DNA from: Halococcus salsus
Lineage (GTDB): Archaea > Halobacteriota > Halobacteria > Halobacteriales > Halococcaceae
Length of the DNA stretch: 64,000 nucleotides
NCBI RefSeq assembly: GCF_009900715.1
Contig: NZ_JAAAJC010000001.1
Span: 485,216-549,215, forward strand
Reading direction: 5' to 3'
Part shown: positions 59,380 through 63,902 of the stretch, piece by piece
Layout: every line of letters starts with the position of its first letter
Numbering within the stretch: the first letter of the stretch is position 1
Notes under the pieces: generated by a model
The model's input: the letters and a program-made list of their open reading frames with translations, nothing else
What the model was told of the DNA's origin: nothing
The model's database searches: none
Program-made: the position numbers and the translations under genes

Positions 59380-60297
59380 CTACGTCGAGGGTGTGTTCAG
59401 GTCGTTGCCGTCGGCGTCGTGGACCGCGTTGTGGGCGGTGACGCGCGGGCCGCGGTCGGTGTGCTCGACGGTGGCCGCGACCCCGAAGACGTCGTGGAGG
59501 AGGTCCTCGGTGATGACCTCATCGGGGGGACCGCGGGCGTAGATCGAGCCGTCGTCGAGCGCGAGCACGTGGTCGGCGTACCGGGCGGCCTGGTCGATGT
59601 CGTGGAGCACGAGCACGATCGTGACCTCGGAGTCGGCCTTCAAGGTCTCGATGATCTCCATGACTTCGAGCTGGTGGTGGAGGTCGAGGAAGGTCGTCGG
59701 CTCGTCGAGCAGGAGGACGTCGGTGTCCTGGGCGAGCACCATCGCGATCCACGCGAGCTGTTTCTGGCCGCCGGAGAGCCCGCCGACCTCGCGGTCCCTG
59801 AGGTGGTCGACGCCCGCGAGGCTGAGCGCGTCCGCGACGGCACACTCGTCCTCGTCGGTCAGCGAATCGAAGAAGCCACGGTGGGGGTACCGACCGTGCA
59901 GCACGAGGTCCTCGACCGTGATGCTCGACGGCGAGACGTTCTCCTGTGAGAGCAACCCGAGCTTCCGTGCGAGCTCCTTGGTGTCGAGGGTCTGTATCGC
60001 CTGTCCGTCGAGCCTGACGACGCCGTCGTCGGGCGTGAGCTGGTTCGAGAGCCCCCGGAGGAGCGTGCTCTTGCCCGAGCCGTTCGGGCCGACCAGCGCC
60101 GTCACGCAGCCCTGGGGGATCGAGACCGACTCGCCGTCGATGACCGGTTCGCCCTCGGGGTAGCCGAGCACGACCTCCTCGCATTCGAGCGTGGTGTCCC
60201 GCTCGGCGGGAACGCCGGGTTCGTCCGCGGGTCCCGACGACTCGCTGCGTTCGACGAGCGTACCGCCGTCCGTCCGGAGCGGGTCGTCGTCGGTCAT
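59380..60297 (-). CDS. Iron/siderophore-type ABC transporter ATP-binding protein
   Basis: 305 residues. Walker A GPNGSGKS, signature GGLSGGQKQLAWIAMVLAQ, Walker B VLLLDEPTTFLDLHHQ and switch VLVLHDIDQAARYADH are the hallmarks of FepC/FhuC/BtuD-type ATPases (the DLHHQ is typical). About 38 acidic residues precede the domain. It is read separately from the permease upstream (137-base gap) behind its own iron-box promoter, so ATPase supply may be controlled independently. Iron-siderophore, haem or cobalamin import fits. Confidence 0.93.
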   Translation of the reverse strand: MTDDDPLRTDGGTLVERSESSGPADEPGVPAERDTTLECEEVVLGYPEGEPVIDGESVSIPQGCVTALVGPNGSGKSTLLRGLSNQLTPDDGVVRLDGQAIQTLDTKELARKLGLLSQENVSPSSITVEDLVLHGRYPHRGFFDSLTDEDECAVADALSLAGVDHLRDREVGGLSGGQKQLAWIAMVLAQDTDVLLLDEPTTFLDLHHQLEVMEIIETLKADSEVTIVLVLHDIDQAARYADHVLALDDGSIYARGPPDEVITEDLLHDVFGVAATVEHTDRGPRVTAHNAVHDADGNDLNTPST

Positions 60298-60382
60298 CGG
60301 GGCTCGCCCTCCGTCGGTCGCAGTCGTGTGTCGAACGCCGACCACGCGTTCGTCCACCACGAAGCGCTCGCGTCCATATCTG

Positions 60383-60398
60383 TTTAGGCACTCCTAAA
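60383..60398. promoter_or_regulatory. Iron box 1 (DtxR/SirR-type operator) over the ATPase promoter
   Basis: tttaggcactcctaaa is a perfect 6-4-6 palindrome. On the minus strand it lies just downstream of the TATA-like cgtttatgc (60400-60408), where transcription should start for the ABC ATPase. A metal-loaded repressor bound here would block initiation. Confidence 0.7.
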
Positions 60399-60408
60399 AC
60401 GCATAAAC
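60399..60408 (-). promoter_or_regulatory. TATA box of the ABC ATPase gene
   Basis: acgtttatgcg-type element (minus strand) directly upstream of iron box 1. With transcription beginning about 25 bases on, the leader would be about 80 bases. Confidence 0.5.
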
Positions 60409-60434
60409 GTTTTCGTTGGGGCGAGATCCTCCCC

Positions 60435-61586
60435 TCAGACCTCGCCGATCGAGCCCTGCTTTCGCATCAGGTAGAGGAAGTAGGGCCCGCCGATCAGCCC
60501 GGTAACGATCCCGACGGGGATCTGGACGGGGTTGAGCGCGAGGCGCGCGCCGACGTCGGCGGCGACCATCAGTGCCGGGCCGGCGAAGACACAACCGACC
60601 ATGAGGCGCTTGTAGTCGCTGCCGACGAGGTTACGGACGACGTGAGGAACGATGAGGCCCACGAAGCTCACGATCCCGGCGACCGAGATGCTCGCCGCCG
60701 CCGCCAGGATCGCGATGCCGGAGAGCGCGAAGCGGACCCGCTCGACCGACATCCCGAGCGACTTCGCGGTGCGCTCACCCAGTAGTAAGACGTTGAGCTG
60801 GCGTGCGCCCGCGAGCGCGAGCACCGTCGCGAGGATCGTCCACGGCAGCGCGATCCGGACCTGTTCCCAGTCGGTGCCCGTGAGCGAGCCCGTGGTCCAG
60901 GAGATCGCCTGCTGGACGATCCCGAGGTCGTCGGCGAAGAAGAAGAGGCCGGTCTGGAGCGACTGGAACACCGTGCTGACGATCACGCCCGCGAGGACCA
61001 GCCGAACCGGCGAGGTGCCGTTCTGCCAGGCGATCGCGTAGACGATCAGGAAGGCGACCGCGCCACCGAGCGACGCCGTCACCGGCAACAGCGCCGTGAG
61101 GCCAGAGAAGACGACGAGCGTGAGGAGGATCGCGAGCCCAGCCCCCGAGGAGACCCCGAGGATGAACGGGCTCGCGAGCTCGTTGCGGGTCACGGCCTGG
61201 AAGATCGCCCCCGAGATCGCGAGGTTCGTGCCCACGAACGCCGCGACGAGGACGCGCGGCAGGCGGATGTTCCAGACGATCAGCGCACGCTGGGGGAGGT
61301 CGACGGCCGCCGTCGAGAGACCGAGCGCCGAGAAGAGGCCGTTCGCGAGGCCTTCACCGAGCAGGAAGGTCGCGATCACCTGCGGGTGCGTCCAGACGAC
61401 CGGGTCGAACACCGCCCCCCAGGCTTGGCCGATGGTCATCGAGTACGACCCGAAGCTCACCTGGACCAGCCCCGCGACCGCCACGATCGCGACGCTCGCG
61501 AGGATCAGCGAGACCAGCGAGCCGTCGACCCACTCGAACCAGCCTTCGTCCTCGCCGGCGGTCGTCGTCGAACCGCTCCCGGCCAT
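60435..61586 (-). CDS. FecCD/BtuC-type ABC transporter permease
   Basis: 383 residues, about nine to ten helices. The typical SGAIFQAVTRNELASPFILG and SVAGIVSFVGLIVPHVVRNL loops are present (the latter contacts the ATPase), and GPALMVAADVGARL is near the C-terminus, all features of siderophore, haem and vitamin B12 permeases. It works as a dimer in the membrane and is 11 bases after the substrate-binding gene, forming a two-gene operon with it. Confidence 0.93.
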   Translation of the reverse strand: MAGSGSTTTAGEDEGWFEWVDGSLVSLILASVAIVAVAGLVQVSFGSYSMTIGQAWGAVFDPVVWTHPQVIATFLLGEGLANGLFSALGLSTAAVDLPQRALIVWNIRLPRVLVAAFVGTNLAISGAIFQAVTRNELASPFILGVSSGAGLAILLTLVVFSGLTALLPVTASLGGAVAFLIVYAIAWQNGTSPVRLVLAGVIVSTVFQSLQTGLFFFADDLGIVQQAISWTTGSLTGTDWEQVRIALPWTILATVLALAGARQLNVLLLGERTAKSLGMSVERVRFALSGIAILAAAASISVAGIVSFVGLIVPHVVRNLVGSDYKRLMVGCVFAGPALMVAADVGARLALNPVQIPVGIVTGLIGGPYFLYLMRKQGSIGEV

Positions 61587-61597
61587 CTACGCTCCCC

Positions 61598-62809
61598 TCA
61601 CGACGACCCCGTGACGATGTCGGCCACGCGTTGCCGGTCGAACAGCTGGTCCGAGGCCCCGTAGACCTGCCGGGCGGCGCGCTCGGTCAGCACGAGGTTC
61701 GTGATCGGGCCCTGATAGAGCGGGCCGCCGCGGTAGACGTCGCCGTTCTCGACCGCGGTCAGCGCGCTCGCGGTGTCGTTGCTTTCGAGATACGACACCA
61801 CGGTGTTCTGGAACTGCTTTCGGGTCTTGTCCTCGTGGCCCCGAAGCAGTAGGACGTCGGGGTCGACCTCCAGCAGCGTCTCGAAGTCGACCTCGCTCCG
61901 GTCGGCGTGGAAGTCCCGAACGGACGTGTCGGCGAACGCGTCCCGGACTTCGAGGTCGCGCCACTGTTTGAAGCTCGTCCCGGGACTGATGAGGTACGGG
62001 GAGAACGTATCCGGTTGGTCGCTTCCCGCCCACATGATCGCCACGGCGGGTTTCTCGCCCGAGGGGACGACCTCGCTCACGTTCGACTGGAAGTCGTCGT
62101 GGAGACCGGCGAAGGCCTCGTAGCGTTCGGTCTCCTGGAACACCTGTGAGAGCTTCTCGAACGCCTCGTAGAGCGAGAGGTACGGGTAGTCCTCGTGCCA
62201 GTCGTAGCCCCGCGAGAAGATGCTGTTGCCGAAGAAGGGCGCTATCTCCGTCTCGATCTCCTTGATGTCGGTCTGGTTCCAGCCCTTGTACCGGTTCAGG
62301 AGGAAGTTGGGGTCGATGACGTGGACGTCGCCGTCGAGCTCGTAGAACAGCTCCTTGCTCACCCCGTCGCTGTAGAGGCTCTGCATCCCGCTCTTGTCAA
62401 CCGAGACGCCGGGGATCTCGTCGTAGTACTGGGTGTGGTACCGTTCGGTGAGCCAGACCGCCTTCGGGGGCTGCTTGCCGAGCGCGACACCCATGTCGGC
62501 CCAGCTTCCGTTGTTGGCGACCCACGTCTCGGGAACGCTGTCGAAGCTTACCGTACCCACGGGCGGCATCGTGGTGCTGTAGGACCCGCCCGATGCGGTT
62601 CCCGTTCCGTCGGTGGCCTCCGAGCCCGTTCCCTCGGCCGCGGTGGATCCGGACTCGGTCGCGGCTCCCGCGCCGGTCGTTCCGTCGCTCGCGGCGGTCC
62701 CGTCGCCGGCACCAGCGGTGCTCTCGTTGGTTCCGCCGTCGCTCCCGGTACAGCCGGCGAGCAGCCCGCCGGCGACCGCCGTGGTTGCGAGGAATCGTCG
62801 TCGTCGCAT
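61598..62809 (-). CDS. ABC transporter substrate-binding lipoprotein (iron type)
   Basis: 403 residues. MRRRRFLATTAVAGGLLAGC has both a twin-arginine signal and a lipobox with Cys20, so it is a Tat lipoprotein. A Thr/Gly/Ser/Ala-rich linker (about 21-75) follows. The binding domain shows KAVWLTERYHTQYYDEIPGV, VHVIDPNFLLNRY and VDPDVLLLRGHEDKTRKQF, like FepB/FecB-family binding proteins (PF01497). It captures an iron chelate outside the membrane and hands it to the permease. It is first in the operon, with two iron boxes upstream. Confidence 0.9.
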   Translation of the reverse strand: MRRRRFLATTAVAGGLLAGCTGSDGGTNESTAGAGDGTAASDGTTGAGAATESGSTAAEGTGSEATDGTGTASGGSYSTTMPPVGTVSFDSVPETWVANNGSWADMGVALGKQPPKAVWLTERYHTQYYDEIPGVSVDKSGMQSLYSDGVSKELFYELDGDVHVIDPNFLLNRYKGWNQTDIKEIETEIAPFFGNSIFSRGYDWHEDYPYLSLYEAFEKLSQVFQETERYEAFAGLHDDFQSNVSEVVPSGEKPAVAIMWAGSDQPDTFSPYLISPGTSFKQWRDLEVRDAFADTSVRDFHADRSEVDFETLLEVDPDVLLLRGHEDKTRKQFQNTVVSYLESNDTASALTAVENGDVYRGGPLYQGPITNLVLTERAARQVYGASDQLFDRQRVADIVTGSS

Positions 62810-62813
62810 ACGA

Positions 62814-62829
62814 GTTAGGCCCGCCGAAA
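62814..62829. promoter_or_regulatory. Iron box 2 upstream of the binding-protein gene
   Basis: gttaggcccgccgaaa, an imperfect 6-4-6 palindrome of the same type, lies between the TATA-like agctaaag (62832-62839, minus strand) and the ATG at 62809, over the expected start of transcription. Confidence 0.6.
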
Positions 62830-62830
62830 G

Positions 62831-62840
62831 AAGCTAAAGC
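62831..62840 (-). promoter_or_regulatory. TATA box of the iron ABC binding-protein operon
   Basis: On the minus strand ggctttagct lies 22-31 bases before the ATG at 62809, flanked by iron boxes 2 and 3. Confidence 0.5.
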
Positions 62841-62847
62841 CTTCCGA

Positions 62848-62863
62848 TTTCGGTCGGCCTAAA
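62848..62863. promoter_or_regulatory. Iron box 3, upstream copy
   Basis: tttcggtcggcctaaa, an imperfect copy of the palindrome, has its centre 34 bases from iron box 2. It sits just upstream of the TATA box, where the transcription factor B element would be. Confidence 0.55.
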
Positions 62864-63021
62864 TCGAAACCCGCTCCGCCCGTGACTTTTCGATCGAGAT
62901 CGATTGCAACGATCACTCATCCGCTTCGCTCCGCCGGGCGATCCCCCGTGCGATGCCATCGCGTGTTCCGATATGGAAACCGGATTTTCGGGATCCCAAA
63001 GAAAACTTCTCGCGAGGGGAA

Positions 63022-63030
63022 TGTTTAAGT
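63022..63030 (+). promoter_or_regulatory. TATA box for dpsA
   Basis: tgtttaagt lies 25-33 bases before the ATG at 63055. No iron box was found nearby. Confidence 0.6.
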
Positions 63031-63054
63031 GGCTTGTCGTCCTACACTGGGATG

Positions 63055-63612
63055 ATGAGTCTCCAAGAATCCGACTCCCGTCTCCAGCAGGAGTTCGGCA
63101 CGGTCGACGAATCGCCGGCGACCCGCATCGAGGCCGAGCGCGCCGAACAGGTCATCGACGCGCTCAACGCCGACCTCGCGGCGTCGTACGTGCTCTATCA
63201 CCAGCTCAAGAAGCACCACTGGAACGTCGAGGGTGCCGAGTTCCTCGAACTCCACCGCTTCTTCGAGGAGGCCTACGAGGACGTCGAGGAGCACGCCGAC
63301 GCGATCGCCGAACGCGCCCAGGCGCTCGGTGGTGTCCCCGTCGCGGGTCCCGTCAACCTCGACGAGCGGAGCTACGTCGAGTTCGAGGGTGAGGACGTCT
63401 ACGACGTCCGGACCTCGGTCGCCAACGACATGGTGATGTTCGCCGACATCGTCGAGCGGTTCCGCGACCACATCGAACTCGCCAACAACCTCGGCGACTA
63501 CACCTCCGAGGAGGTCCTGCGCCACGCGATCACGGACTACGAGGAGTACGCCCACCACCTGGAGCACTACCTCGAAGACGACACCCTCGTGCTCGAAGAA
63601 GCGACGCACTGA
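63055..63612 (+). CDS. dpsA: Dps-family ferritin-like protein DpsA
   Basis: 185 residues. It forms a dodecamer that oxidises and stores iron and shields DNA. The four-helix core has the ferroxidase ligands in HHWNVEGAEFLELHRFFEEA (His, Glu) and EEHADAIAERAQALGG. The N-terminal ~20 acidic residues and the C-terminal extension are as in halobacterial DpsA. The start 63055 was chosen; ATG at 63052 is equally possible. It lies between iron importer and iron-boxed small gene, giving an iron-homeostasis locus. Confidence 0.95.
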   Translation: MSLQESDSRLQQEFGTVDESPATRIEAERAEQVIDALNADLAASYVLYHQLKKHHWNVEGAEFLELHRFFEEAYEDVEEHADAIAERAQALGGVPVAGPVNLDERSYVEFEGEDVYDVRTSVANDMVMFADIVERFRDHIELANNLGDYTSEEVLRHAITDYEEYAHHLEHYLEDDTLVLEEATH

Positions 63613-63636
63613 GGCGTAGTCCACGAAAACTCGTTC

Positions 63637-63641
63637 TTTTT
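63637..63641. terminator. T-run between dpsA and the convergent small gene
   Basis: gttctttttcg, a run of five T 25 bases after the dpsA stop. It could end dpsA transcription. Confidence 0.4.
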
Positions 63642-63673
63642 CGATTCCCTCCGAGAGCTATCAGTCCCGCAGT

Positions 63674-63853
63674 TCAGCGTTCGAGGTCGACGGCGAGGTC
63701 CGTCGCGATCCACCCGTCGGTGTTCCCCGCCTCGACGAAGACGCGACGGCCGGGGCGGGTGGTGTGCACCGAGACGCCGTGGTCGAGCCGCGATCCGCTG
63801 TGGTCGTCGGTCGTGGTCGTGTCGGGGCCCAATCGGTGGGAGGGAACGGCCAT
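63674..63853 (-). CDS. Small iron-boxed protein of unknown function
   Basis: 59 residues. The first 25 are polar and rich in Thr/Asp (GPDTTTTDDHSGSRLDHG). The rest, VHTTRPGRRVFVEAGNTDGW followed by IATDLAVDLER, has the look of a compact beta-rich domain and resembles a small haloarchaeal family (DUF7331-like, from memory). There is no signal, helix or Cys. The start lies eight bases after a perfect iron box that overlaps the expected transcription start. Expression is therefore likely to follow iron status, but a function is not known. Confidence 0.75.
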   Translation of the reverse strand: MAVPSHRLGPDTTTTDDHSGSRLDHGVSVHTTRPGRRVFVEAGNTDGWIATDLAVDLER

Positions 63854-63860
63854 TACCCGA

Positions 63861-63876
63861 GTTAGGCAACCCTAAA
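63861..63876. promoter_or_regulatory. Iron box 4 over the small gene's start site
   Basis: gttaggcaaccctaaa, a near-perfect 6-4-6 palindrome between the TATA box and the ATG at 63853. Confidence 0.7.
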
Positions 63877-63886
63877 GTCATAAGCA
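63877..63886 (-). promoter_or_regulatory. TATA box of the small iron-boxed gene
   Basis: On the minus strand tgcttatgac lies 24-33 bases before the ATG at 63853, between iron boxes 4 and 5. Confidence 0.6.
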
Positions 63887-63902
63887 TTTTGGTCGGCCTA
63901 AT
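63887..63902. promoter_or_regulatory. Iron box 5, upstream copy
   Basis: ttttggtcggcctaat, a weaker copy whose core (tcggcctaa) is the same as in iron box 3. Its centre is 26 bases from that of iron box 4, on the far side of the TATA box. Confidence 0.5.

Follow-up and report, generated by a model that had tools for sequence, protein, structure and literature searches.

Palindromic boxes at the right end of the window (the whole 64-kb stretch of Halococcus salsus DNA that was analysed) are probably, at roughly 85%, one-dimer operators for a metal repressor of the DtxR/IdeR type, which would control a genome-wide iron regulon by the promoter mechanism proposed below. The core of the window boxes equals the IdeR/DtxR one-dimer consensus TTAGGNNNNCCTAA and the targets are iron genes, which supports the DtxR-type operator that a sequence-only reading of this DNA had suggested. 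The sites, their pairing, their positions, the target genes and the conservation were all read from sequence. A switch of this type is already known, and the paired layout around the promoter is the most interesting part.

The window was scanned with TTTAGGN4CCTAAA at 0–2 mismatches over 64 kb, with dinucleotide shuffles as background. Five matches were found in all (shuffle mean 0.09, maximum 2), at 60383 (0 mismatches), 62814 (2), 62848 (1), 63861 (1) and 63887 (2). These are the five palindromes listed in the sequence-only reading, and its pair distances were also reproduced, with centres 34 bp apart for 62814/62848 and 26 bp for 63861/63887. As it had further described, a TATA-like element accompanies every box (TTTATG, CTTTAG and CTTATGA, read on the - strand), and the boxes precede the ATPase, the binding-protein/permease operon and a 59-aa ORF. 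The half sites are inverted TTAGG/CCTAA arms with a 4-bp spacer, as in DtxR/IdeR-type operators; the 19-bp two-dimer form was not found at these sites, which are of the 14–16-bp one-dimer form. Base preferences are limited to both arms, with weak preference in the spacer. With a position matrix built from 21 sites of the same genome, the five boxes were the top of the window (18.2–23.7), partly by construction, as they were among the training sites; no score exceeded 16 in 30 order-1 resamplings of the window. A sixth, weaker box, missing from the earlier reading, was identified before dps at 62986–63001 (matrix score 11.3).

The iron-uptake ABC locus lies on the - strand and encodes a lipoprotein-type iron/siderophore binding protein (Peripla_BP_2, E 7.5e-16; 61598..62809), a FecCD permease (E 1.1e-87; 60435..61586) and a FecE-type ABC ATPase (ABC_tran, from ORF and domain match; 59380..60297) with its own box upstream. 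In the binding-protein promoter, motif matches place an inner box TTTCGGCGGGCCTAAC (62814..62829, -) 4 nt 5' of the ATG and an outer box TTTAGGCCGACCGAAA (62848..62863, -) 34 bp from it, with a putative BRE/TATA-like stretch TCGGAAGGCTTTAGCTTC (62830..62847, -) between both boxes. The ATPase promoter carries a single iron box TTTAGGAGTGCCTAAA without mismatches (60383..60398, -), located between a predicted BRE/TATA-like element CGAAAACGTTTATGCGT (60399..60415, -) and a leader ORF followed by the ATPase; this box is kept in the nearest relatives. The leader ORF (60294..60377, -; from the ORF and its relatives) has a stop codon overlapping the ATPase start (ATGA). It spans 27 codons in five genomes, and the peptide is not kept: each of the 11 base differences seen between the members of two close pairs alters an amino acid, and a role as a conserved peptide is not supported. 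Leader ORFs of 17–34 codons were observed directly after the box in several boxed non-lipoprotein genes, namely at 60294–60377 (-), C2:5738 (L003; C numbers denote contigs and L numbers loci), C1:1261526 (L002/L227) and C3:288789 (L087), two of them overlapping the main gene through ATGA. The pattern suggests translational coupling on leaderless mRNA.

Next to this locus, a DpsA-type ferritin-like protein is encoded on the + strand (63055..63612; PF00210, E 8.6e-33), whose nearest named relatives are from a Halobacteriales metagenome genome (86% identity) and Halococcus thailandensis (83%). Convergent with dps is the 59-aa gene (63674..63853, -), recognised as an ORF with relatives and conserved class-wide. 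Its inner box TTTAGGGTTGCCTAAC (63861..63876, -; motif match) lies 7 nt 5' of the ATG, and its outer box ATTAGGCCGACCAAAA (63887..63902, -) is 26 bp from the inner box, with its right arm abutting the TATA-like TGCTTATGAC. The match of the protein to DUF7331 (PF24018; E 0.006, 17.5 bits) falls below the cut-off of 27, as do those of several orthologs beside dps; hence we call it DUF7331-like only. Of 80 dps loci from public genomes, 51 have a short ORF running convergently to dps, with a VFxExxNxDGWIATD-like motif. The inner box ends 6–8 nt before the ATG of this ORF in 49 of the 51 loci, and 40 of them have an outer box, at a spacing of exactly 26 bp in 38 and 27 bp in 2. Over 50 distinct small-gene promoters, information reaches 1.6 bits per column in the boxes, 1.1 in the 10 bp between them and 0.2 in the upstream flank; the promoters were selected on box and spacing, so of these values just the in-between and flank ones are independent of the selection. 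From these sequence features we regard the 59-aa gene as real, a DUF7331-like dps neighbour with a class-wide 26-bp pair. Across haloarchaea, genes for DUF7331-like proteins were observed convergent beside dps under such a pair (L057–L086, L147–L226).

The dps promoter itself has a weak single box TTTCGGGATCCCAAAG (62986..63001, +), 69 nt before the dps start and upstream of the BRE/TATA. In 49 of the 80 dps promoters, scanned from -130 to -21, the best-scoring place lies 70–72 nt before the ATG, likewise upstream of the BRE/TATA. This single, upstream-only position suits activation, as far as promoter layout indicates. Over the 80 promoters, scores of the dps box reach from negative values, at promoters that have lost the palindrome, up to 22; the box is weak or missing in many genomes, which counts against our preferred explanation.

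The genome was examined by pattern searches and through the stretches around matched sites. Places with at most one mismatch number 18, and 16 of them stand before genes linked to iron or metals or before conserved small genes, so a scatter at random positions, which would have spoken against the regulon, was not observed. Two such sites, C3:68173 and C2:324084, have no obvious iron gene downstream, a point against our preferred explanation. The six exact matches all have spacer 4, with spacers of 0–12 allowed. At two mismatches the count is 30 places against 47 in the reversed control, and the motif alone is not significant at this level; most other such places are chance-like, and two-mismatch sites were dropped as evidence. 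What carries the signal is the set of sites with no more than one mismatch, together with the exact spacer, pairing and placement of the boxes.

Boxes with at most one mismatch precede six Peripla_BP_2 genes (in the window and at C2:249079, C2:291622, C4:208094, C5:171575 and C7:53653), and two 2-mismatch boxes are found at a seventh, C3:247416. The ATG of the binding-protein genes follows the inner box at 3–4 nt, a distance that leaderless transcripts would predict. Other targets with at most one mismatch are the ATPase and the 59-aa gene in the window, an idr-like DtxR-family gene (box at C3:288789), a ZIP transporter (box at C7:12742), a DUF7552-DUF7260-MFS group (box at C2:5738) and a siderophore cluster at C1:1261526. 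The last comprises a class-III aminotransferase followed by IucA/IucC, an acetyltransferase, a Lys/Orn monooxygenase and a second IucA/IucC, and resembles the dat/iuc gene order reported from Hfx. volcanii. The expectation that other iron genes would share the motif is thus borne out by the seven Peripla_BP_2 genes, the idr-like gene, the dat/iuc cluster and the ZIP transporter. Boxes in front of iron-uptake and siderophore genes are characteristic of DtxR/IdeR-type operators, and this placement is seen here. The earlier proposal of an iron regulon at the right end of the window is supported for the boxes found there; the regulon itself extends over the genome and is not limited to that end. 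Additionally, a 36-bp box pair was observed before the DUF7552, DUF7260 and MFS transporter genes (L228; G000 C2:4000–12000), which are candidates for an iron-linked function, perhaps siderophore export. A gene named from its sequence as a katG-like catalase-peroxidase (C2:291763, L036) has a 2-mismatch box 25 nt before its start and is arranged divergently to a binding-protein gene that also carries a box.

Among 18 genomes of the family, the spacer is 4 in every exact match listed (0–12 allowed). Pairs were searched as two boxes with a free gap and centres 22–52 bp apart, with the reversed motif as control. Paired boxes were found in 15 of 18 family genomes, 119 of 145 class genomes and 49 of 58 genera, while the control gave zero pairs in the 145 class genomes. 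Four centre distances (26, 34, 35 and 36 bp) account for 99 of the 110 pairs listed, where a uniform spread predicts about 14; the 110 include many orthologous promoters. In the genome itself, seven different promoters are paired, at 34, 26, 35, 36, 34, 36 and 36 bp. Spacings of 26 and 36 bp differ by about one DNA turn, and the mean helical phase is about 0.4 turn; this phase, close to half a turn, hints at two dimers on more or less opposite sides of the DNA without proving it. At spacings of 34–36 bp, TATA and ATG flank the inner box, and the outer box sits directly 5' of the BRE; at 26 bp, the right arm of the outer box abuts the TATA and hence overlaps the BRE. Either arrangement would be expected to block TFB/TBP and the polymerase.

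Cooperativity or dual blocking would be consistent with the fixed spacing, which may also reflect promoter geometry alone. In the latter case, boxes would occlude the BRE or the start independently and the pair geometry would be a by-product, an option that competes with the cooperative step only and to which we give even odds. Inner boxes 3–8 nt before the ATG and outer boxes abutting or preceding the BRE constrain the distances anyway, spacings of 34, 35, 37 and 39 occur too, and single-box promoters exist; against this stand the one-turn difference between the main spacings with its consistent phase, and the exact 26 bp of 38 of the 40 detected small-gene pairs. Chance resemblance of AT-rich promoter sequence would agree with the genome count at two mismatches, which is not above the reversed control, but it is contradicted by the exact spacer, the absence of control pairs in 145 genomes and the fixed distance to start codons. 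With the shuffles, the spacer and the pair controls taken together, a chance origin was ruled out, its probability being practically nil, and the boxes are in all likelihood functional.

Three genes of the genome, at C1:381.5k, C1:1129.6k and C3:288.97k (the idr-like one), score above the PF01325 cut-off for the DtxR family. The protein at C1:381.5k combines a DtxR N-terminal domain with metal-binding and FeoA domains and conserves the residues at IdeR H79, E83, H98, E105 and H106, which we take to be the metal ligands in IdeR numbering. Asp occupies its positions corresponding to IdeR Met10 and Cys102. Residues of the binding helix differ from IdeR (Gln43 is replaced by Ala or Glu), so recognition cannot be inferred from protein sequence. 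The box of the idr-like gene, TTTAGGTTTGCCTAAA, starts 176 nt before the idr-like start, and a box at an idr gene is a feature of the Idr/SirR/TroR regulon; in relatives the gene has paired boxes at 36–37 bp (L091, L092, L094). The product of this boxed gene (L018/L087; G000 C3:288965–289339) was observed to retain hardly any of the canonical metal ligands, so the usual mode of metal sensing may not apply to it. The idr-like gene adjoins dps in several genomes and may correspond to Idr (HVO_0538) of Hfx. volcanii, an orthology based on class-wide similarity and dps adjacency rather than on direct comparison with HVO_0538, and for which the Hfx. volcanii dps locus tag is presumed.

These proteins bear on two further explanations. 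A manganese-sensing (SirR/MntR-like) member of the family, with the boxes serving a general divalent-metal response instead of iron, would suit the boxed ZIP transporter and the Asp residues of the full-length protein at the Met10 and Cys102 positions, a substitution that resembles Mn-type regulators. It is an improbable alternative, as the targets are mainly siderophore-type uptake genes (FecCD/Peripla_BP_2) with an IucA/IucC-type cluster, and boxes surround dps. Haloarchaea also have many winged-helix factors, and DtxR binding is here a prediction from sequence; use of the palindrome by a transcription factor of another family is nevertheless very unlikely, given the DtxR/IdeR core, the iron-gene targets and an idr-like DtxR-family gene that is boxed here and carries pairs in relatives.

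The DtxR/IdeR-type operator agrees with known systems in several respects. The one-dimer site of IdeR is the 14-bp TTAGGNNNNCCTAA (TTAGGN4CCTAA), to which a redefinition of the consensus was proposed; a designed half site bound IdeR with an apparent KD of 78 nM, and the DtxR/IdeR box of Actinobacteria has the 19-bp form TTAGGTTAGSCTAACCTAA (PMC8464063). The boxes described here share with the actinobacterial box the half sites, the 4-bp spacer and iron-uptake/siderophore targets, and in both systems two dimers can occupy one target. However, the bacterial full site holds two overlapping dimers on one 19-bp site, whereas here two separate one-dimer boxes lie 26 or 34–36 bp apart around the TATA. 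In haloarchaea, iron control by DtxR-family proteins is established: PMC11349517, with reference to Schmid 2011 and Martinez Pastor 2024, links three DtxR proteins, Idr, SirR and TroR, to iron in Hfx. volcanii and names Idr1/Idr2 of Halobacterium (Schmid et al. 2011). The iuc siderophore cluster of Hfx. volcanii is induced under iron limitation (PMC11349517). Three DtxR-family genes, iron-uptake targets and a boxed idr-like gene are common to this network and the present genome. In work attributed to Martinez Pastor et al. in 2024, TroR of Hfx. volcanii reportedly represses uptake and idr and induces storage, and the upstream-only dps box, being compatible with activation, would agree with this induction. 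The TroR motif is said to lie about 100 nt upstream of starts, farther out than the inner boxes here, which counts against our preferred explanation. Leyn and Rodionov reportedly described archaeal DtxR regulons by comparative genomics in 2015, with palindromic motifs before metal transporters, a feature shared with the boxes of this genome.

For the mechanism, we infer the binding protein, the metal, repression, dps activation and cooperativity. Under iron sufficiency, one DtxR-family dimer loaded with metal would sit on the inner box, between the TATA and the start codon of a leaderless or nearly leaderless transcript; a second dimer would occupy the outer box, which either coincides with the TFB-recognition element (BRE) or lies immediately 5' of it. 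Both dimers would exclude TFB/TBP and RNA polymerase from the promoters of the iron-uptake ABC genes and the DUF7331-like gene, and would be released at low iron. At dps, with one weaker box well upstream of the BRE/TATA, a protein of this kind would leave the promoter free and could favour transcription. Given the box positions, uptake and storage would therefore respond in opposite directions. We tentatively suggest, at somewhat below even odds, that in haloarchaea one DtxR-type box forms a position-coded two-way iron switch, in which pairs on nearly opposite DNA faces around BRE, TATA and start shut uptake, a single box about 70 nt upstream activates dps, and the class-wide DUF7331-like protein is an unrecognised core member of the iron response.

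The proposed layout offers a precise, testable picture of how a bacterial-type repressor would control iron at an archaeal (TBP/TFB) promoter, and it connects where a box lies with whether regulation is likely to be positive or negative. It would also tie a small protein of unassigned function to iron and Dps across haloarchaea.
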